Shown: in pieces, positions 13,907-56,314 of the stretch | Layout: each line of letters opens with the position of its first letter | Position numbering within the stretch: the first letter of the stretch is position 1 | From: Flavobacteriales bacterium | Lineage (GTDB): Bacteria > Bacteroidota > Bacteroidia > UBA10329 | Length of the DNA stretch: 64,000 nt | Direction: 5' to 3' | Assembly (NCBI GenBank): GCA_021739695.1 | Contig: JAIPBM010000007.1 | Coordinates: forward strand, 1 to 64,000 | The notes under the pieces: model-generated | What the model was told of the DNA's origin: nothing | Seen by the model: only the letters and a program-made list of their open reading frames with translations | Databases searched by the model: none | Program-made: the position numbers and the translations under genes

Positions 13907-13942
13907 GAGGTCGGCTTCTTCGGAGGTCGGCCTCTTTTTTTT
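13907..13942 (+). terminator. Rho-independent terminator after lipoprotein gene
   Basis: GAGGTCGGC (13907-13915) pairs with GTCGGCCTC (13926-13934), all nine positions pairing with two G-T wobbles, across a 10-base loop. Eight T residues follow at 13935-13942. It lies 20 bases after the stop at 13886. Confidence 0.85.
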
Positions 13943-14013: not shown

Positions 14014-14589
14014 ATGAAAACGGAGGAGCTCTTCATCAGGAACATGGTCAGCAGTCGTTGCATTCTAGCCGTTAGGCAAATGTTGCGTTCGTTGGATATG
14101 GAAGAAGTGGAACGTATTTCGCTTGGCCGTGCAGTGGTAGGTTACGAAGATGAAAGACAATTGGCACAGTTCATCGATGCACTTCCATCCATTGGATTTC
14201 TATTGGTGGAAGACGATGGACAGAAACAACTGGAGATGATAAAAGCTGCTTCAATCGAGCTGTTCTATCATGGAAATAATGCCAATTCGCTTATCCGTAA
14301 TTCAGATCACTTGAGCGAACGCACTGGAATGCCTTATCATCAACTTAGTCGCATTTTTTCTGAACAGACCGGCACAACGCTCGAGAAGTACATCATTCTA
14401 CTTAAGATTGAGCGGGTAAAGGAACTCTTGAGTTACAAAGATTTAACGCTCAGTGAAATATCCTATCAAATGGGATACAGTAGTGTTCAGTATCTGAGTA
14501 ATCAATTCAAGCAGGTTACCGATGTAACGCCTAAACAGTTCAAGGATGGACAAGGTGGTCAGCGTATTCCGCTGGACAAGCTCATTTAA
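14014..14589 (+). CDS. AraC-family regulator with degenerate HMA-like N-domain
   Basis: A 191-residue transcription factor. The C-terminal AraC-type DNA-binding domain (about 90-178) has two helix-turn-helix units: LSERTGMPYHQLSRIFSEQTG, and LSEISYQMGYSSVQYLSNQFKQVTDVTPKQFK with the conserved family signature. The N-terminal 70 residues (IRNMVSSRCILAVRQMLRSLD) resemble the ferredoxin-like heavy-metal-associated domain found in front of many Bacteroidota AraC proteins. Its CxxC metal site is reduced to Ser13-x-x-Cys16. It stands 125 bases upstream of the PqqD-like gene in the same direction. With the inverted repeats in that gap, it is the obvious candidate regulator of the 14.7-22.0 kb gene set, though this is inference. 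Confidence 0.88.
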   Translation: MKTEELFIRNMVSSRCILAVRQMLRSLDMEEVERISLGRAVVGYEDERQLAQFIDALPSIGFLLVEDDGQKQLEMIKAASIELFYHGNNANSLIRNSDHLSERTGMPYHQLSRIFSEQTGTTLEKYIILLKIERVKELLSYKDLTLSEISYQMGYSSVQYLSNQFKQVTDVTPKQFKDGQGGQRIPLDKLI

Positions 14590-14611
14590 AGGATTAACCT
14601 CAATCATCTGC

Positions 14612-14696
14612 TTGTGTGAATCTTACACAACCAAGTTATAAAACTGTAATTCCCGTCCGATTTCAAGTCTGTTACTTTGACCTAATACAATCGGAC
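14612..14696. promoter_or_regulatory. two inverted repeats in the promoter region of the PqqD/ATP-grasp operon
   Basis: In the 125-base gap before the PqqD-like gene there are two exact inverted repeats. TTGTGT (14612-14617) pairs with ACACAA (14625-14630), and GTCCGATT (14655-14662) with AATCGGAC (14689-14696). Between the second pair lies TTACTTTG (14672-14679), close to the Bacteroidota -7 consensus TAnnTTTG but one base short in spacing. The arrangement suggests an operator overlapping the promoter. AraC proteins usually bind direct repeats, so the binding factor is uncertain. Confidence 0.4.
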
Positions 14697-14714
14697 AACT
14701 AAAAATCAGAAGTC

Positions 14715-14963
14715 ATGATAAGCCTAAAGAAAAACATTGCAATCAGCGAGTCAGGGTTCGTTTTCAACCCTACCACTGGCGATTCGTTCTCCCTTAATTC
14801 TGTCGGAACCGACATTCTCAAATTGTTGAAAGACGGTAAGGGCGAAAAAGAGGTGAAAACTACCGTTATCGACAGGTATGACGTGGACGAAGAAACCTTT
14901 GACAAGGATTATTACGACTTCCTGAAAATGTTGGGCCAATACAAACTTCTTGACGCATCGTAA
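14715..14963 (+). CDS. PqqD-like protein (RiPP recognition element fold)
   Basis: An 82-residue cytoplasmic protein matching the PqqD family in length and pattern. The N-terminal strands (IAISESGFVFNPTTGDSFSLN) lead to SVGTDILKLLKDGKGEKEV, a helix, and the C-terminal helices with VDEETFDKDYYDFLKMLGQYKLL. PqqD and its relatives bind the leader part of ribosomal peptides and present it to a modifying enzyme. Here no radical SAM gene is present; instead an ATP-grasp ligase gene follows 2 bases downstream, and a PLP decarboxylase with a leader-like tail lies further on. The binding partner is therefore probably encoded nearby. The assignment to the fold is good, but the role is inferred. No Cys is present. 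Confidence 0.78.
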   Translation: MISLKKNIAISESGFVFNPTTGDSFSLNSVGTDILKLLKDGKGEKEVKTTVIDRYDVDEETFDKDYYDFLKMLGQYKLLDAS

Positions 14964-14965
14964 TC

Positions 14966-16036
14966 ATGAAAAAGCAACTGACCATAGCCGTTACGGGGCT
15001 GAACAACATCGATAGTCCAGGACCGGGAATTCCCGTGATCAGGGCCTTGCGCGACAGCGAAGAATTCGAGGTTCGGATTATTGGTCTGAGCTACGAAACC
15101 CTTGAACCGGGCATTTACATGCACGAAATGGTGGATCATGTTTATCAGATTCCATTTCCGAAATCTGGAACAGAAGTGATCTTCGGACGAATCGCTTACA
15201 TCAACTCATTAGAGAATATTGATGTGCTGATTCCAAACTTCGATGCAGAACTGTTCAACTTCATCAAGTTGTCAGATCGGATGGAAAGCGAATTGGGAAT
15301 CAAAACCTTCCTTCCAACCTTAGAGCAATTTGAGGCGCGCCATAAGGTGAATCTCGAAGAGTTCGGAGAGAAGCATGGCATGCTTGTTCCGAAAAGCAAA
15401 ATGATCTTTTCCACCGCGGAAATTCCAAAGTTGGCACAGGATTTTACCTATCCGATTGTAGTGAAAGGTCAGTTTTACGATGCCCATATTGCCTACAATC
15501 AAGAACAGGTGGCCACGTATTTCAACAAGATAGCTGCCAAGTGGGGACTGCCGATTGTCATTCAACAGTTCGTTTATGGAACAGAAGTGAACATCATTGC
15601 TCTTGGCGATGGCGAAGGCAATATGATAGGCGCGGTGCCCATGCGCAAGCAATACATTACTGACAAAGGCAAAGCTTGGGCAGGAGTGAGTTTGGATGAT
15701 GAAGGCTTACTATCCGAAGCTAAATCGATGATAGCAAGTTCAAAATGGCGAGGCGGAATGGAGCTCGAGTACATCAAAACCAGCGATGATGAATATTACC
15801 TGCTCGAGATCAATCCACGATTCCCAGCATGGGTTTACCTCGCAAATGGTTGCGGTCAGAACCTTCCCGAAGCATTGGTAAAAATGTCATTAGGAGAAAA
15901 GGTGAAACCGTATGACAGTTACGAAGTCGGAAAAATGTTCATCCGCTATTCGTGGGACATGATCGTAGACATGAAGGAGTTCGAGGAGATTTCTACAACT
16001 GGAGAGCTTGGACCAAAGAAGCGAAAGGCTTCTTAG
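14966..16036 (+). CDS. ATP-grasp carboxylate-amine ligase-like protein
   Basis: A 356-residue cytoplasmic enzyme of the ATP-grasp superfamily (CarB/D-Ala ligase type). It would activate a carboxylate as acyl phosphate and join it to an amine or thiol. The N-terminal preATP-grasp domain (about 5-110) begins with IAVTGLNNIDSPGPGIP. The ATP-binding part has Lys167 (YPIVVKGQF), the acidic strand GMELEYI (264-270) and metal-binding E281-I-N283-P-R285. The C-terminal tail is Lys-rich (KKRKAS). The start lies 2 bases after the PqqD-like stop, so the two are almost certainly co-translated. Neither substrate is evident. Other readings are a carbamoylation or biotin-carboxylase-type reaction. Confidence 0.85.
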   Translation: MKKQLTIAVTGLNNIDSPGPGIPVIRALRDSEEFEVRIIGLSYETLEPGIYMHEMVDHVYQIPFPKSGTEVIFGRIAYINSLENIDVLIPNFDAELFNFIKLSDRMESELGIKTFLPTLEQFEARHKVNLEEFGEKHGMLVPKSKMIFSTAEIPKLAQDFTYPIVVKGQFYDAHIAYNQEQVATYFNKIAAKWGLPIVIQQFVYGTEVNIIALGDGEGNMIGAVPMRKQYITDKGKAWAGVSLDDEGLLSEAKSMIASSKWRGGMELEYIKTSDDEYYLLEINPRFPAWVYLANGCGQNLPEALVKMSLGEKVKPYDSYEVGKMFIRYSWDMIVDMKEFEEISTTGELGPKKRKAS

Positions 16037-16040
16037 AGTA

Positions 16041-16059
16041 ACGAGTTGCGAGTTTCGAG
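16041..16059. repeat. short dispersed repeat, copy 1 (before four-helix-bundle gene)
   Basis: ACGAGTTGCGAGTTTCGAG lies between the ATP-grasp stop (16036) and the four-helix-bundle start (16083). It shares GAGTTGCGAGTTTC or AGTTGCGAGTTTC with the copies at 16452-16475 (inverted) and 17860-17883 (direct). Confidence 0.7.
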
Positions 16060-16082
16060 TCACGAGAATTAACCGAAGAAAG

Positions 16083-16445
16083 ATGAAAGATTTCAAGAAA
16101 TTGATTGTTTGGCAAAGGTCAATGGATGTTGTGGATAAGGTTTTCGACCTGATTGAAAATATGACGCGAGCAGAACAATGGATTCTGTCAAACCAGGTCG
16201 GTCGTTGTTCCGTCTCCATTCCATCAAATATTGCGGAAGGTGCTGGAAGAAAGACAAGTAAGGATTTTGCCCACTTTTTAGACATTGCCTTAGGTTCAAG
16301 TTTTGAATTGGAAACGCAACTGCTTATTTGTCAAAGAAGAAAATCGCTCGCCCAAACAGACCTGAACGGAATGATACAGGAAGTATTGGAAATACAGAAA
16401 ATGATAATTGGACTGCAAAAAGCAGTTCGCGCAAAACAAGATTAA
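16083..16445 (+). CDS. four-helix bundle protein (S23 / 23S rRNA intervening-sequence type)
   Basis: A 120-residue helical protein of the S23 family. It shows the hallmark start DFKKLIVWQRSMDVVDKVFDLI and the core QVGRCSVSIPSNIAEGAGRKTSKDFAHFLDIALGSSFELETQLLI. The family was first found in insertions of 23S rRNA genes and is widespread in Bacteroidota; its biochemical role is not known. A longer in-frame start at 16008 would overlap the ATP-grasp gene and translate repeat DNA, so I use the ATG at 16083. It sits between the ATP-grasp and decarboxylase genes, flanked on both sides by related short repeats. It looks like a cassette dropped into the operon and not a pathway enzyme. Confidence 0.88.
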   Translation: MKDFKKLIVWQRSMDVVDKVFDLIENMTRAEQWILSNQVGRCSVSIPSNIAEGAGRKTSKDFAHFLDIALGSSFELETQLLICQRRKSLAQTDLNGMIQEVLEIQKMIIGLQKAVRAKQD

Positions 16446-16451
16446 ACGCAT

Positions 16452-16475
16452 TCTCGCAACTGGAAACTCGCAACT
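16452..16475. repeat. short dispersed repeat, copy 2 (inverted, before decarboxylase gene)
   Basis: This 24-base unit is the exact reverse complement of the unit at 17860-17883; its core on the minus strand is AGTTGCGAGTTTCCAGTTGC. It lies in the 45-base gap between the four-helix-bundle and decarboxylase genes. Together with copy 3 it brackets the decarboxylase gene as an inverted pair. Confidence 0.8.
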
Positions 16476-16490
16476 AGAAACTCAGAAAAC

Positions 16491-17849
16491 ATGGAAAAGC
16501 AGCGCTATGAAAGGCCAATAATCAGAAGGCTGAATACTGGAGTGATGAACAAGTTCGGTACTAAGACGGAGTACGAACCAGTAACGCATATCGATGATTG
16601 TGCCGTGAAAGATCTGATGGCAGAGTACGGTTCTCCGTTGTTTGTAATCTCACAGAAAACGATTCACGAAACGTACCAAGCGGCAAATCGTGCTTTCAAT
16701 ACACGCTATCCAAAGGTTCAATTTGCCTGGAGCTACAAGACCAACTACATCAATGCGGTTTGCAACGTTTACCACAAGTTGGGTTCGTGGGCAGAAGTAG
16801 TTTCTGGATTTGAATACCTGAAAGCGCTGAAGAATGGAGTTCCTGGTTCGAAGATCATCTTCAACGGACCAGACAAAACTGTTGAAGAGTTGAAGTTGGC
16901 AATTGAGAATAAATCACTCATTCACATCGATCACTTGGATGAGCTTTACACGCTCACAGAAATGTGCGAGGAGACAGGAATTCGTCCCAAAGTGGCCATA
17001 CGTGTAAACATGGACACAGGAATCTACCCAATGTGGGACCGATTCGGTTTCAATTATGAGAACGGACAAGCTTGGGACGCTATCAATAAGATAGTTCTTA
17101 GCGATAGAATGGATCTGGTAGGATTGCATGCACATATCGGAACGTTTATGCTTACTGCCAATGCTTACGGGGTTGCTGCCAGAAAACTCTCTGAATTGGC
17201 CTTGAGCATTCAGAAAAAATACGATAAGAAGATCCAGTACATAGATATGGGCGGAGGTTTTGCCTCTACCAATACGCTGAAGGGTTCTTTTCTTTCAGGA
17301 ACAGATACATCACCAAGCTTTGATGATTATGCTGAGGCGATTTCAACCGCCATCATGAATGCTGGTTTTGTGGAGGACGAATTGCCATTGTTGATTCTGG
17401 AAACAGGTCGGGCAATGATTGATGAAGCTGGTTCTTTGCTTGGTTCGGTTATTTCAAATAAGCGATTGAGCGATGGACGAAAAGCCACGATCATGGACTT
17501 TGGCGTAAATATTCTGTTCACTTCGTTCTGGTATGACCACAAGATCAGTCCTGCGCAGGAGTTCAGCCATCATACCGAAGATTCGGTTATGTACGGCCCG
17601 CTGTGTATGAACATTGACGTGGTGCGCGAGAATGTGACGCTTCCGCCATTGAAACGAGGCGACCATGTGGTTGTGCATACCGTAGGTGCTTACAACATGA
17701 CCCAATGGATGCAATTTATTGCATTGCGTCCAGCAGTTGTGATGATTGACCTTGACGGCAAACCGCACATTATCCGAAAGCGCGAAACGCTCGACAATAT
17801 CGATCAGCAGGAGCAAATGCCTGCGTACCTGAAAGAGTTTAAATTATGA
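16491..17849 (+). CDS. PLP-dependent decarboxylase, diaminopimelate/ornithine decarboxylase fold type III
   Basis: A 452-residue enzyme of the group IV amino acid decarboxylases. The PLP-binding Lys83 lies in FAWSYKTNY, His213/His215 are in GLHAHIGT, the phosphate-binding loop is GGGF (254-257), and E304-T-G-R307 follows. GPLCMNID carries Cys372 and Asp376, the residues contributed to the partner active site. The family domain starts only near residue 46 (YGSPLFVISQKTI). The first 45 residues are extra and include YERPIIRRLNTG, which resembles YxxPxL leader motifs recognised by PqqD-like domains. Since it sits in a ligase/transport cluster, it may not be the lysine-pathway LysA. The substrate (an amino diacid, a basic amino acid or a ligated derivative) is unknown. 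Confidence 0.85.
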   Translation: MEKQRYERPIIRRLNTGVMNKFGTKTEYEPVTHIDDCAVKDLMAEYGSPLFVISQKTIHETYQAANRAFNTRYPKVQFAWSYKTNYINAVCNVYHKLGSWAEVVSGFEYLKALKNGVPGSKIIFNGPDKTVEELKLAIENKSLIHIDHLDELYTLTEMCEETGIRPKVAIRVNMDTGIYPMWDRFGFNYENGQAWDAINKIVLSDRMDLVGLHAHIGTFMLTANAYGVAARKLSELALSIQKKYDKKIQYIDMGGGFASTNTLKGSFLSGTDTSPSFDDYAEAISTAIMNAGFVEDELPLLILETGRAMIDEAGSLLGSVISNKRLSDGRKATIMDFGVNILFTSFWYDHKISPAQEFSHHTEDSVMYGPLCMNIDVVRENVTLPPLKRGDHVVVHTVGAYNMTQWMQFIALRPAVVMIDLDGKPHIIRKRETLDNIDQQEQMPAYLKEFKL

Positions 17850-17859
17850 ATGAGCTACG

Positions 17860-17883
17860 AGTTGCGAGTTTCCAGTTGCGAGA
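17860..17883. repeat. short dispersed repeat, copy 3 (direct, after decarboxylase gene)
   Basis: This unit begins 10 bases after the decarboxylase stop. It is identical over 24 bases, inverted, to 16452-16475. A small ORF through it (17846-18031) has no protein-like composition and is not annotated. Confidence 0.8.
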
Positions 17884-17884
17884 T

Positions 17885-18013
17885 GTCAATCCCCCGTCCC
17901 AAAAGTTCTGCAAGCTCCACTTTTGCGTCACCCCCTTTGAAACGGGGACTGAACTCCATCCTCCTTTTAAAGGAGGTGCCGAGGAACGAGGCGGAGGATT
18001 TTCATCAGATATT
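17885..18013. repeat. structured intergenic repeat-like element
   Basis: The gap before the urea-transporter fusion holds stacked short stems: CCCC (17933-17936) with GGGG (17943-17946), and the near-palindrome CCTCCTTT-T-AAAGGAGG (17960-17976). GGCGGAGGAT follows at 17990-17999. The C-rich then G-rich layout is like common interspersed elements of Bacteroidota genomes. No coding sequence is evident. It could also affect mRNA stability between the decarboxylase and transporter genes. Confidence 0.45.
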
Positions 18014-18033
18014 CAATTAGTTGATTTCTAAAC

Positions 18034-20220
18034 TTGAGAGATTCTAATAGATACACTTGGAAATTGATCTGGGAGGGACTGTTGCACAGTTACTCCCAGA
18101 TTTTTTTCAGCCTCGATAAGGTATTTGCCGTTGTTCTACTCTTATGCTCGTTCATTGATCCTTATGTAGGCATAAGCGCCATTATTGCTGGCGTAATCGC
18201 TATTCTGACTGCATATTTCTTGGGCTTTGATCACAAGAACATTCGCGAAGGAATGTACAGTTTCAACAGCGTCATGGTTGGAATGGTGATGGCCGTGTAT
18301 TTCGACATGAATGTGCCGTTCATGCTCTTGCTCGTGCTGATGTCCGTGTTCACGCTCTTTTTCACATTGGCTATCAATGCACAACTGAAGGTCTACGGAT
18401 TGCCGATAATGAGCATTCCGTTCCTTTTCGGTGTTTGGACAATCCATTTGGTAGGTCGCGAATTTGCTGGATTGCATCTTACCGAACGCGGCATTTACAC
18501 CATCAACGAGTTGTGGTCGTACGGAGGCGAAACGCTGGTCAACTTCTATGATATGATGGAGAATCTGCCAATTCCAGACATTATAGATGTGTACCTCCGA
18601 TCGCTGGGCGCCATCTTCTTTCAGTTTAACATCTTGGCCGGATTGGTGATCATGGTCGGCCTCATTCGCTTTTCGCGCATCGCATTTCTGCTATCGCTGG
18701 TCGGTTTTTTTAGCGGCTACCTGTTCTTCGGTTTCATGCAAGGGCAGTTCTCGCATTTGCACTACAGTTACATTGGGTTCAACTTCATTCTGTCGGCCAT
18801 TGCTTTGGGCGGATTTTTCATCATTCCATCGCGCGGATCGTTTTTGCTTGTGGCATTGGCATCTCCTATCATCGCCATTCTGATTGCTGCCATCGGCAAT
18901 CTTTTCACCGTGGTTCAACTCCCGATTTATTCACTTCCATATAACGTACTTGTACTTATTACATTATATGTTCTGAAGTTGAGGTTGGCTCCGCGAGGTC
19001 TGACTCCCATCGTGGAACAGTCCTATTCTCCAGAAGTAAATCTGTACCGATTCCTCAATCAGAAAGAGCGTTATGCCAACGATACCTACTTCCATATTTA
19101 CCTTCCTTTTTATGGCGAATGGACCATTTCGCAAGGACATGATGGCGATATAACGCATAAGGGAGAATGGAAAGAAGCCTTTGATTTTGTTGTGGAAGAT
19201 GAGCAGCACAAAACCTATAAGGATTCGGGAACGAGACTGGAGGATTTTTACGGTTACGGTCGTCCGGTGATGGCGCCACAGGCGGGTTGGGTGGTTTCGG
19301 TTGAGAACGATGTGGACGATAACCAGATCGGTGAAGTGAACCTAAAGCAGAATTGGGGAAACACGGTTGTTATTCAGCACGGAGAAGGTTTATACACCAA
19401 ACTCAGCCACTTGAAGCACGGAAGTGTGAAAGTGGAAGTTGGAGAGCATATCAAGAAAGGACAAGTGTTGGCCGCATTAGGAAATTCTGGCCGTTCGCCA
19501 GAACCGCATATTCATTTCCAAATGCAGACCACGCCATACATCGGTAGCAAGACCTTGAAATACCCGCTTGCTTACTACATGGAGAAAACGGCTGATGGTC
19601 AACGGTTTCATTCATACGATTATCCGAAAGAAGGACAGATCATTTCCAATGTGAAAGTGAATCCGCTGCTTAAAAAGGCATTTGCCTTCATTCCAGGAAT
19701 GCATATTCATCTCGAATCGGAAGGCGAAAAGTTTGAGTGGGAAGTGTTTACGGATGCTTACAACTATACTTATATCTATTGCCATCAAACGGAGGCGGTT
19801 GCTTATTTCGTGAACAACGAGACGCTGTTCTATTTTACCAAATACATCGGCAATCACGCTTCACCGCTGTTCCAATTCTATACTGGACTCTATAAAGTGA
19901 TGCTCGGATTTTATCAGGATCTGAAGATCACAGACCATTTTCCTGTAGATGCCATCTATTCGGGAGTTCTGAAAGGAATGCTCGATCTGGTTTCGCCATT
20001 TTATCCTGTTGTAAAAGCAGATTACGAATTGAGCTATTCAGAAATGGATGATGCCATCGAGCCTGAATGGGCCAAGCTCAATTCCGAGCTTTCCGTGAAA
20101 GCATTAGGAGGTACAAGACTTAAGAAAAACTTTCACATCGAGTTCTCTCACGTAGGTATTTCCAAGTTCGCTATATCTCAGAACGGTAAAGAAAAAGTGT
20201 ACTCATGCGAAGTGCGGTAG
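18034..20220 (+). CDS. urea transporter-like channel fused to a periplasmic M23 peptidase-like domain
   Basis: A 728-residue inner-membrane protein. Residues about 15-320 form about 10 membrane segments of urea-transporter type, including GFDHKNIREGMYSFNSVMVGM; the family conducts urea and related small amides. Residues about 350-520 form an M23/lysostaphin-like domain with GYGRPVMAPQAGWVV, H459 (KLSHLKHG), GEHIKKGQVLAALGNSG and the H492-I-H494 pair. In the first metal motif (HxxxD), Asp384 is present but positions 380-381 are Lys-Glu, so zinc binding is doubtful. A further 200-residue C-terminal part has no known domain. The start is TTG (18034); an in-frame stop lies at 18022-18024 and no ATG precedes the first helix. 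It overlaps the next gene by 16 bases. Confidence 0.82.
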   Translation: MRDSNRYTWKLIWEGLLHSYSQIFFSLDKVFAVVLLLCSFIDPYVGISAIIAGVIAILTAYFLGFDHKNIREGMYSFNSVMVGMVMAVYFDMNVPFMLLLVLMSVFTLFFTLAINAQLKVYGLPIMSIPFLFGVWTIHLVGREFAGLHLTERGIYTINELWSYGGETLVNFYDMMENLPIPDIIDVYLRSLGAIFFQFNILAGLVIMVGLIRFSRIAFLLSLVGFFSGYLFFGFMQGQFSHLHYSYIGFNFILSAIALGGFFIIPSRGSFLLVALASPIIAILIAAIGNLFTVVQLPIYSLPYNVLVLITLYVLKLRLAPRGLTPIVEQSYSPEVNLYRFLNQKERYANDTYFHIYLPFYGEWTISQGHDGDITHKGEWKEAFDFVVEDEQHKTYKDSGTRLEDFYGYGRPVMAPQAGWVVSVENDVDDNQIGEVNLKQNWGNTVVIQHGEGLYTKLSHLKHGSVKVEVGEHIKKGQVLAALGNSGRSPEPHIHFQMQTTPYIGSKTLKYPLAYYMEKTADGQRFHSYDYPKEGQIISNVKVNPLLKKAFAFIPGMHIHLESEGEKFEWEVFTDAYNYTYIYCHQTEAVAYFVNNETLFYFTKYIGNHASPLFQFYTGLYKVMLGFYQDLKITDHFPVDAIYSGVLKGMLDLVSPFYPVVKADYELSYSEMDDAIEPEWAKLNSELSVKALGGTRLKKNFHIEFSHVGISKFAISQNGKEKVYSCEVR

Positions 20221-21383
20221 TCACCTTATTATTTGTGCTTTTTGCATTGCTTGGCCATTCTCAGGAATGGTCGGATAAGGCGCAGTATGATGCCTACATG
20301 AAAGGCGATTGGCAGCAGGTGATTGAGCTAGGAAAACTGGCCAGAAAAGCAGGAGCCGATTACTACTATATCCGCGTTCGGAATGGTTATGCCAACTATC
20401 AATTGGGTAGGTTTCATCAGGCCGAAAAGGAATTTGAAAAAGCGCTGGAGTTCAATAGTGGCGATGTCTTTTCCAAGCGCTACAGCTACTGGTCTTCTTA
20501 TTATGCAGGCAATGTTTCCACCGCTTTGGTCAAAAGCGGTCAGATGTCGCCACCGGAGCAAGACACGATTCAAGTAATTAAACCGAAATTCTTCACGGCC
20601 ATTTCTGCGTTGGGAGGTTACCGCGTGTCCACTTCGCAGAATTTTGTAGGCAACATGCCGTATGTTTCTGCTTACCTCGACCATCAGATCGGGAAGCGAA
20701 TTACGCTCCATCATGGTGTCAGTTATCTCAACCAAACACGCACTTCTTTTATCAATAGATTGAACTCAACCGTTTGGCAGGTCGGGTATTTGGCCACGGT
20801 GGGAATTCAAGTCGCGAAACACACCACCATCGCGCCTTCGTTCGTTATGCAATACTGGCAAACAGATGGCTTTAAGGTTTACGACCTGAGTGCAACCTTA
20901 GCGGTCCGTCAGCAATTCGGAAACATGAATACCACACTTATCGGTGGCTATTTCCAAGATACGGACACGACTAAATACATGGTTGGTGGTTCTTTTACCT
21001 GGTATCCGCTGCACAACTTGAAATTGTATTCCATCACATCTGGTGGTTACAATTTTGGCGGTGCGGCCCCAAATCCATTCGTGAAGCAAACCATTGGCGG
21101 ACAGTTGTTCAAAAAAGTTTGGTTGAGTTCATCCTTCAACTGGAATCATCAGGTATTGGTATTTGAAGATATCGGCCTTGATTTTGCCAATAATAGTGTT
21201 GACAGATTGAATTGGAAATGGTCACTGAGCCCCGTTTTCTATCCTCTTCCTAAACTTGCGCTTTCTCTGACGTATTCTATCGAATCCCGTCAATATTACC
21301 GCTTGGGCGAATTGGGCATTGCCAACATTTCCGATCCGTACAATTTCCACTCATTCTATGTAGGTTTGAACTATAATTTCTGA
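20205..21383 (+). CDS. outer-membrane beta-barrel protein with N-terminal TPR-like part (YaiO type)
   Basis: A 392-residue protein with a signal peptide (1-19, ending GHSQ). A helical TPR-like stretch follows (about 25-110, NGYANYQLGRFHQAEKEFEKALEFNSGD), then a beta-barrel of alternating strands (about 125-392). The last residues GLNYNF end in an aromatic residue, the usual outer-membrane barrel assembly signal. The layout matches the YaiO outer-membrane family. Its start lies 16 bases inside the urea-transporter/M23 gene, and the TPR gene follows after 2 bases. The three are therefore a tightly coupled unit that could link inner membrane, periplasm and outer membrane. The substrate is unknown. 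Confidence 0.8.
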   Translation: MRSAVVTLLFVLFALLGHSQEWSDKAQYDAYMKGDWQQVIELGKLARKAGADYYYIRVRNGYANYQLGRFHQAEKEFEKALEFNSGDVFSKRYSYWSSYYAGNVSTALVKSGQMSPPEQDTIQVIKPKFFTAISALGGYRVSTSQNFVGNMPYVSAYLDHQIGKRITLHHGVSYLNQTRTSFINRLNSTVWQVGYLATVGIQVAKHTTIAPSFVMQYWQTDGFKVYDLSATLAVRQQFGNMNTTLIGGYFQDTDTTKYMVGGSFTWYPLHNLKLYSITSGGYNFGGAAPNPFVKQTIGGQLFKKVWLSSSFNWNHQVLVFEDIGLDFANNSVDRLNWKWSLSPVFYPLPKLALSLTYSIESRQYYRLGELGIANISDPYNFHSFYVGLNYNF

Positions 21384-21385
21384 AC

Positions 21386-21994
21386 ATGAAAAACATCGTT
21401 TTATTCGCAGTTTGCATCGGTATTTCCTTTGGTAGCTTGGCTCAATCAACTGATCTGCAGGTTGCTTTTAAGAAGAGCTACGCCAACGAGACCAAAAGCG
21501 ATTTCACAGCTGCTATCAAAGACCTGAAAGCAGTGTATTCCGAAACCTCATACGAAACCAATTTGCGTTTGGGCTGGCTGCATTATTCGGCCGGACTCTT
21601 CACCGAATCCATGGCCTATTACACCAAAGCCATCGACCTGATGCCTGCTTCTGTTGAAGCCAAATTCGGCTACGTTTACCCAGCTGCAGCGGTCGGAAAT
21701 TGGGATCAGGTTAAAAACCAGTATGAGAGCATTCTTCGCATTGATGCCAAGAATTCACAGGCACATTATCGTCTTGGCCTGATCTATTACGGACGGGAAG
21801 AATTTGATAAAGCATTGCAGCATTTTCAGGTCGGTTTCAACCTCTATCCATTCGATTACGACTTCAATCTCATGATGGCTTGGACAAGCCTCAAAATGGG
21901 TAAAATGCGCGAAGCAAAAGTGCTTTTCAATAAGGTTTTGCTGCTTTCACCAGACGATCAATCAGCCATCGAAGGACTTTCTTTGATAAAGTAA
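21386..21994 (+). CDS. periplasmic tetratricopeptide repeat protein
   Basis: A 202-residue exported protein. A signal peptide (1-20, ending GSLAQ) is followed by about five TPR-like helix pairs, for example TNLRLGWLHYSAGLFTESMAYYTKAIDLMPAS, AHYRLGLIYYGREEFDKALQHFQVGFNLYP and LMMAWTSLKMGKMREAKVLFNKVLLLSPDD. Such repeats hold protein complexes together. It is the last gene of the PqqD/ATP-grasp/decarboxylase/transport set, 2 bases after the barrel gene, and probably scaffolds the barrel or the M23-like domain in the periplasm. A dispersed repeat begins within 30 bases after its stop. Confidence 0.82.
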   Translation: MKNIVLFAVCIGISFGSLAQSTDLQVAFKKSYANETKSDFTAAIKDLKAVYSETSYETNLRLGWLHYSAGLFTESMAYYTKAIDLMPASVEAKFGYVYPAAAVGNWDQVKNQYESILRIDAKNSQAHYRLGLIYYGREEFDKALQHFQVGFNLYPFDYDFNLMMAWTSLKMGKMREAKVLFNKVLLLSPDDQSAIEGLSLIK

Positions 21995-22020
21995 TTCAGG
22001 GCGTTCCCGATAAAAGATCA

Positions 22021-22155
22021 GGTCGGGCTGTCCGCTTTATCTTTTTCCCAAAACACGAGGTGGTCATTCTGAGTACCGATTGTCGTAAGCTAATGGCGTA
22101 TCGAAGAACGATCGAGTGGTTTTGGGAAAAAGGATGCCGCTTCCATCCCTAACGC
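22021..22155. repeat. dispersed intergenic repeat with nested insert, copy A
   Basis: The left arm GGTCGGGCTGTCCGC (22021-22035) and right arm AAAAAGGATGCCGCTTCC (about 22127-22144, continuing to GCAGC at 22155) match the element at 56239-56314, which is in opposite orientation. Here the arms are separated by a perfect 14-bp inverted repeat, CTTTTTCCCAAAAC (22041-22054) / GTTTTGGGAAAAAG (22119-22132). It encloses 64 bases with GTCATTCTGAGT and GTATCGA, a motif set also seen at 38418-38516. No ORF is present. Confidence 0.75.
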
Positions 22156-22182
22156 AGCCCGGTCTGAAACACCTTCGCTTTT

Positions 22183-56166: not shown

Positions 56167-56238
56167 CTTAAAAAATTGGAGCGCAAAGGTACTTAAAAGA
56201 AATACGAATCTGTCAGTTTGGCAGACGATTGATAGCGC

Positions 56239-56314
56239 TGCGTGAGGGACGGAAGCGGCATCCTTTTTTGTTTTTCACAAAAAAGATATAGCGGACTGCC
56301 CGACCCGAATTTGC
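56239..56314. repeat. dispersed intergenic repeat, copy B (opposite orientation to copy A)
   Basis: Read on the minus strand it contains GGGTCGGGCAGTCCGC then TATATCTTTTTT and AAAAAAGGATGCCGCTTCC followed by TCCCTCACGCAGC, matching the arms of the element at 22021-22155. The insert found in copy A is absent here. It lies in the 248-base gap between miaB and the GT2 gene. Confidence 0.75.

Follow-up and report, generated by a model that had tools for sequence, protein, structure and literature searches.

Discrete lasso RREs bind leader peptides of the pattern [Y/W]xxPx[L/V/I/F/A], and in the LppB complex the kink at the leader Pro is held by N33, the Tyr side chain sits in a pocket lined by Y60 and is bonded by D70, and F74 packs against the Pro while also lining a second pocket (PMC13381572). 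Among PLP decarboxylases, FigC is grouped with SbnH, AcsE, MccE, BtrK and DAP decarboxylase (DAPDC); FigC, SbnH, AcsE, MccE and BtrK decarboxylate conjugated amino acids, with BtrK acting on one attached to a protein, and the Asp that elsewhere lies beside the catalytic Cys and binds the substrate side-chain amine is Met355 in FigC (PMC7857480). Relatives of both kinds of protein occur together in the window, by which we mean the whole stretch of 64,000 nucleotides analysed here, in a gene set whose decarboxylase carries a leader-like N-terminal tail. The features of the locus are as follows.

13907–13934, + strand: terminator-like stem-loop and T-run (12-pair stem with seven GC pairs, then eight T), the upstream boundary of the unit
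14014–14589, + strand: AraC-type regulator, accessory (PF12833, 3.6e-18)
14715–14963, + strand: PqqD-like protein, by sequence a discrete RRE (PF05402, 1e-11, above cut-off)
14966–16036, + strand: ATP-grasp ligase (PF15632, 3.8e-9)
about 16083–16445, + strand: S23 (23S-rRNA-intervening-sequence) four-helix-bundle protein (PF05635, 9.3e-34)
16491–17849, + strand: PLP decarboxylase of alanine-racemase fold, FigC/DAPDC/BtrK type (PF02784, 6.7e-30; Orn/DAP second domain PF00278, 1e-12)
16506–16559, + strand: leader-like tail of the decarboxylase, residues 6–23, YERPIIRRLNTGVMNKFG (conservation, fixed spacing, low pLDDT)
18034–20220, + strand: UT–M23 fusion (PF03253, 1.9e-54; PF01551, 1.4e-18)
20205–21383, + strand: secreted protein with N-terminal TPR and a likely C-terminal outer-membrane barrel (signal-peptide-like N-terminus, final Phe)
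21386–21994, + strand: secreted TPR protein (TPR_2, 2.6e-16; signal-peptide-like N-terminus)

The seven same-strand ORFs of the first-pass annotation lie where it had placed them, with the 2-base gaps (PqqD/ATP-grasp and barrel/TPR) and the 16-base overlap (transporter/barrel) that it had reported, and Pfam backs its calls for AraC, PqqD, ATP-grasp, decarboxylase, UT, M23 and TPR but not for the barrel. Its seven-gene unit had nonetheless passed over an eighth gene, that of the S23 protein, between ligase and decarboxylase. Of the inverted repeats that it had described upstream, one stem-loop was found, at 13907–13934, but this has the look of a terminator for the gene before it, and the search gave no further strong inverted repeat. 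The S23 gene is an insertion and not part of the core cassette: close relatives of the window have cassettes without it, and it recurs once among the surveyed loci, in the same ligase–decarboxylase gap of a distant genome (L120, 9505–9912). The AraC gene is likewise outside the core, as roughly one surveyed locus in four has it upstream. Its product has a conserved N-terminal part that matches no Pfam model, reads near LRLKNMVCNxC in a relative and has in part disappeared from the window copy. Two matches to Flavo-1 RNA exceed the Rfam gathering score, one at 22017–22169 (−; 51.3 bits), directly downstream of the cassette and ahead of a DNA polymerase III alpha-like gene, and one at 56230–56309 (+; 50.9 bits).

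Comparison across genomes confirms the gene set and shows it to be widely conserved. In congeners and in genomes of other families the order PqqD, ATP-grasp, decarboxylase, UT–M23, barrel, TPR is kept. A decarboxylase-alignment scan of GTDB genomes returned at least 501 relatives, and among 103 loci, comprising the best 80 of these and more distant genomes, 93 had the PqqD-like, ATP-grasp, decarboxylase and UT–M23 genes in order on one strand, with median gaps of −8, 22.5 and 11 bases across these first four genes. Contig ends truncate seven of the ten exceptions, and one (L090) has a PqqD-like protein at the score threshold, leaving two true exceptions: L061, which lacks the transport genes though its contig continues, and L131, which lacks the upstream genes. 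TPR and barrel-like genes usually lie downstream of the fusion, a TPR gene following it in most loci; in distant members the tail and the gene order persist, but the barrel model has no match and a signal-peptide-like protein of ~280 aa comes after the TPR gene or the fusion instead. Among 247 sampled Bacteroidota genomes the decarboxylase occurred in 23 and UT–M23 in 23, and these were the identical set, spanning 20 genera and 13 families (by automatic family codes). The co-occurrence search that had been suggested from the sequence thus found the neighbourhood recurring in diverged genomes, and in related genomes the genes have stayed neighbours; since it recurs across such diverged genomes, the arrangement is far beyond chance. 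PqqD, ligase and decarboxylase did not share a single reading frame at any locus.

Some further observations concern individual loci. Two Bacteroidales loci have a gene for ~280–315 aa between decarboxylase and UT–M23 (L099, 11364–12311; L120, 11443–12276). In one genome (G159) a contig carries a cassette at each end (L188 and L189), one copy with a stop in UT–M23, which is probably an assembly overlap. The cassette had no match among 72,556 plasmid records, and plasmid carriage was set aside; none of its seven proteins matched a PADLOC model, which led us to discard an anti-phage defence system. We searched the literature as open-access PMC full text, where no description of the gene combination was found, in line with the first-pass annotation, which knew of no described pathway with this combination; two genome-wide RRE surveys do not mention a decarboxylase.

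The feature that sets the decarboxylase apart is a lasso-leader-like motif, YERPxI...G..NKFG, at the N-terminus of this 452-aa protein. Across 101 enzymes the tail hardly varies, even where enzyme identity drops to 47%, with Tyr6 in 98 (Phe in 3), Glu7 in 100, Pro9 in 101, Ile11 in 92, Gly17 in 90, Asn20 in 93, Lys21 in 101 and Gly23 in 100, a Tyr-to-Lys spacing of 15 in 101/101 and a fixed spacing from Lys21 to the folded part in 99/101. Mean entropy in these enzymes is 1.00 bit for residues 6–23, 1.58 for the linker (residues 24–46) and 0.97 for the catalytic part. The AF2 model has a mean pLDDT of 86 with the catalytic part well predicted, but values fall below 50 for residues 7–25, and alignments to FigC and DAPDC begin only at residues 32–34, so that the tail remains unaligned with relatives of solved structure. 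All the cassette decarboxylases examined carry it, and it is absent from 12 LysA-like homologues of related genomes. Being conserved, predicted to be disordered and followed by a more variable linker, the tail has the appearance of a docking motif. Its Y..P.I pattern fits that of the leaders bound by discrete lasso RREs, and the distance from its Tyr to the conserved Lys/Gly is one that we take to resemble the distance from the lasso leader Tyr to the penultimate Thr/first core residue. A graspetide-like core (TxTE) within the tail was considered and rejected, as conservation of T24, T26 and E27 does not extend to distant members.

The PqqD-like protein is, judged by its sequence, a discrete lasso-type RRE with the leader-gripping residues retained. 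Its four best PDB matches by profile are TbiB1 (2.6e-12), TfuB1, PbaB1 and LppB, all lasso or LPP RREs solved with YxxP or WxxP leaders, and PqqD itself ranks lower (0.06). Once the LppB chain numbering of the profile alignment is shifted by 18 to that of PMC13381572, LppB N33, Y60, D70 and F74 align without gaps to N28, Y55, D65 and F69 of the window protein, and these are conserved in 96, 91 (Phe in the other 5), 93 and 92 of 96 homologues, respectively. Consistent with a contact between tail residue 6 and RRE residue 65, these positions covary: of 96 pairs, 93 are Tyr–Asp, two Phe–Tyr and one Phe–His, which is the strongest of the 28 × 78 tail-by-RRE pairs by normalised mutual information. 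Seven further enzymes with Phe6 (FERP) were found, and all six of the RREs recovered for them have Tyr65 (6/6). In a tree built without the tail the Phe6 lineages need one or two changes, and the covariation is therefore clean but made of few events, on one or two branches only.

Might the RRE instead serve an ordinary precursor, encoded elsewhere or missed, with the tail a relic or regulatory decoy of a leader? Both the lasso type of the RRE and the likeness of the tail to a lasso leader would suit such an ordinary RiPP pathway. However, when short ORFs with Y..P.[ILV] were inspected by eye at 87 loci, over a region reaching 3 kb upstream and 5 kb downstream of the cassette, no YxxP mini-gene recurred outside near-identical genomes, so that no gene-encoded leader-bearing precursor was evident around these loci. 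The lasso B2 transglutaminase-like protease (PF13471), whose presence would mark a lasso cluster, is absent from the whole genome, and a relic would not stay near-invariant down to 47% enzyme identity; we consider this alternative quite unlikely. The only other PqqD-like protein of the genome (L144, 7800–8963, on contig 2) lies beside kinase-like and signal-peptidase-like ORFs, an arrangement that presumably resembles HPr-rel-A. With no recurrent mini-gene nearby, no B2 protease family and the other PqqD-like protein among different genes, no conserved candidate ligand other than the tail was found. Of the earlier suggestion that the PqqD-like fold binds a leader peptide, the leader-gripping fold stands, but the likeliest ligand is the decarboxylase tail and not a separate precursor. 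We think it probable, on good sequence evidence, that the decarboxylase is docked by way of its tail on the RRE.

The decarboxylase is nearest to FigC (7kh2; 4.2e-65, Z 43.6), then to DAPDC, in both sequence and fold, with BtrK a little further (Z 40.7). Both PF02784 and PF00278 are present, the PLP Lys83 and catalytic Cys372 are invariant, and so, in a 39-member alignment, is Met373 beside Cys372. As read from the alignment, the citrate-contacting H357 and R387 of FigC correspond to Ile375 and Gln405, and the partner of the conjugate is therefore probably not citrate. Scores against the equivalog models fall short of the curated values for both FigC/FslC (NF041039; 222.7 bits against 500) and LysA (TIGR01048; 218.5 against 297.9), and a role in lysine biosynthesis was set aside, the genome having a separate LysA-like gene. 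The ligase has an ATP-grasp fold (AF2 pLDDT 92.6; nearest fold 2pn1, Z 30.4) with a conserved EINPR motif, the ExNxR metal site; its specificity could not be taken from the fold, biotin carboxylase, GAR synthetase, PylC and L-amino-acid ligase all following 2pn1 at Z 24–26. From the family of the decarboxylase and its pairing with a ligase, we give about an even chance to the ligase making an amino-acid conjugate that is then decarboxylated. Of the proposal that the set ligates and decarboxylates an amino acid or peptide, the recurring ligase/decarboxylase/transport cassette itself is supported, while we only infer the chemistry and the product.

The invariant Lys21 allows another use of the tail, as a covalent carrier: the RRE would present it, the ATP-grasp enzyme would load an amino acid on Lys21, the same enzyme that bears the tail would decarboxylate that amino acid in cis, M23 might release the product and the UT channel would let it out. 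Lys21 lies within the disordered tail in 101/101 enzymes and at a spacing from the folded part that is fixed in 99/101, the cassette shows no separate carrier protein, and in BtrK there is a precedent for decarboxylation of a protein-borne amino acid (PMC7857480). Lys21 may, however, merely contact the RRE or another partner, and its fixed spacing fits a plain docking motif equally well. Moreover, we know of no ATP-grasp enzyme that loads such an enzyme tail, and we regard the carrier role as unlikely; if true, it would amount to a leader-guided, carrier-based pathway with neither precursor peptide nor carrier protein.

In the fusion protein, a UT domain (about 18079–18972) is followed by an M23 domain (about 19156–19530) and a C-terminal part of unknown fold. 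The UT domain clearly matches PF03253, though it scores 114 bits against the curated 274.6 of the equivalog TIGR03441, and it keeps both proline-containing signature stretches, with Ser at a signature position where classical urea transporters have Thr. Urea utilisation was rejected, the genome having no urease alpha subunit. The M23 ligands H, D and HxH and the catalytic His are kept: across 70 proteins, H375, D384, H459, H492 and H494 each show conservation of 97% or more. The UT domain is positively charged at either end and acidic in its central loop; because this charge pattern puts both UT termini inside, the M23 domain is predicted, by a rule of thumb, to be cytoplasmic, and the envelope role that it had been given becomes doubtful. 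The accompanying label “YaiO-type” found no backing either, there being no Pfam or NCBIfam YaiO match among 30 homologues of the barrel protein; these had TPR in 21/30 and single matches to BBP2_2 and OMP_b-brl, and the C-terminal part of the 20205–21383 protein is likely an outer-membrane barrel.

The same genes could be read as envelope remodelling, in which the DAPDC relative and M23 act on peptidoglycan fragments that the UT channel and barrel move inwards. The nearness of the decarboxylase to DAPDC in sequence and fold and the intact M23 metal ligands would agree with this. The acidic residue that lies beside the catalytic Cys in DAPDC/ODC is Met here, however, M23 is predicted on the cytoplasmic side, the genome has a separate LysA-like gene, and the RRE and tail would be left without a role, all of which makes this reading very improbable. 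As to the direction of transport, export of the product would be the simplest reading as against import, one that we hold tentatively and at somewhat less than an even chance.

We return to docking by the tail, and propose a conserved biosynthesis–transport cassette that operates with no precursor peptide. In it, the PqqD-like RRE would grip the disordered tail (residues 6–23) as lasso RREs hold a leader, with Tyr6, Pro9 and Ile11 in the cleft, and this docking would set the decarboxylase beside the ATP-grasp ligase. The ligase would join an amino acid, via its side chain, to another group; the decarboxylase would strip the alpha-carboxylate from the conjugate, as in FigA/FigC and BtrJ/BtrK; and the small amine or amide product would leave via the UT channel and the TPR and barrel proteins, perhaps trimmed or freed by the M23 domain. 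Because docking is its core, we hold this joint reading with rather better than even confidence. The leader-like tail on a decarboxylase is the new point, as it suggests an undescribed kind of enzyme tethering in a small-molecule pathway, itself apparently undescribed, with envelope transport genes of its own and present in at least 13 Bacteroidota families. RREs serve as markers of ribosomal-peptide clusters; if the tail is the ligand, some orphan PqqD-like proteins would be enzyme-docking adaptors, which would change how PqqD-like matches are read in genome mining.

Altogether, the set lacks the defining features tested of RiPP, lasso and FigC pathways, and its parts are of known kinds. With PQQ biosynthesis it has the PF05402 domain of PqqD in common, but no radical SAM enzyme lies in the cassette and the profile match to PqqD is only 0.06. 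BtrJ is an ATP-grasp ligase, and the butirosin pair BtrJ/BtrK shares with the cassette an ATP-grasp ligation, here putative, after which a related PLP enzyme removes the carboxylate; butirosin, however, uses a carrier protein, BtrI, and none is seen in the cassette. The rhizoferrin pathway of FigA/FigC (FslA/FslC) follows the ligase-then-decarboxylase logic that is proposed for the cassette, with a decarboxylase of the same clade and Met beside the catalytic Cys, but here the ligase is an ATP-grasp enzyme and not an NIS synthetase, the citrate-contacting His and Arg are not conserved, and RRE, tail and transport genes are added. Compared with the discrete lasso and LPP RREs (TbiB1, 5v1u/5v1v; TfuB1, 6jx3; PbaB1, 9x90; LppB, 9x8z), whose sequence family and YxxP-gripping residues it shares, the PqqD-like protein stands in a cassette without precursor peptide, lasso protease or cyclase, where the leader motif is borne by a 452-aa enzyme.
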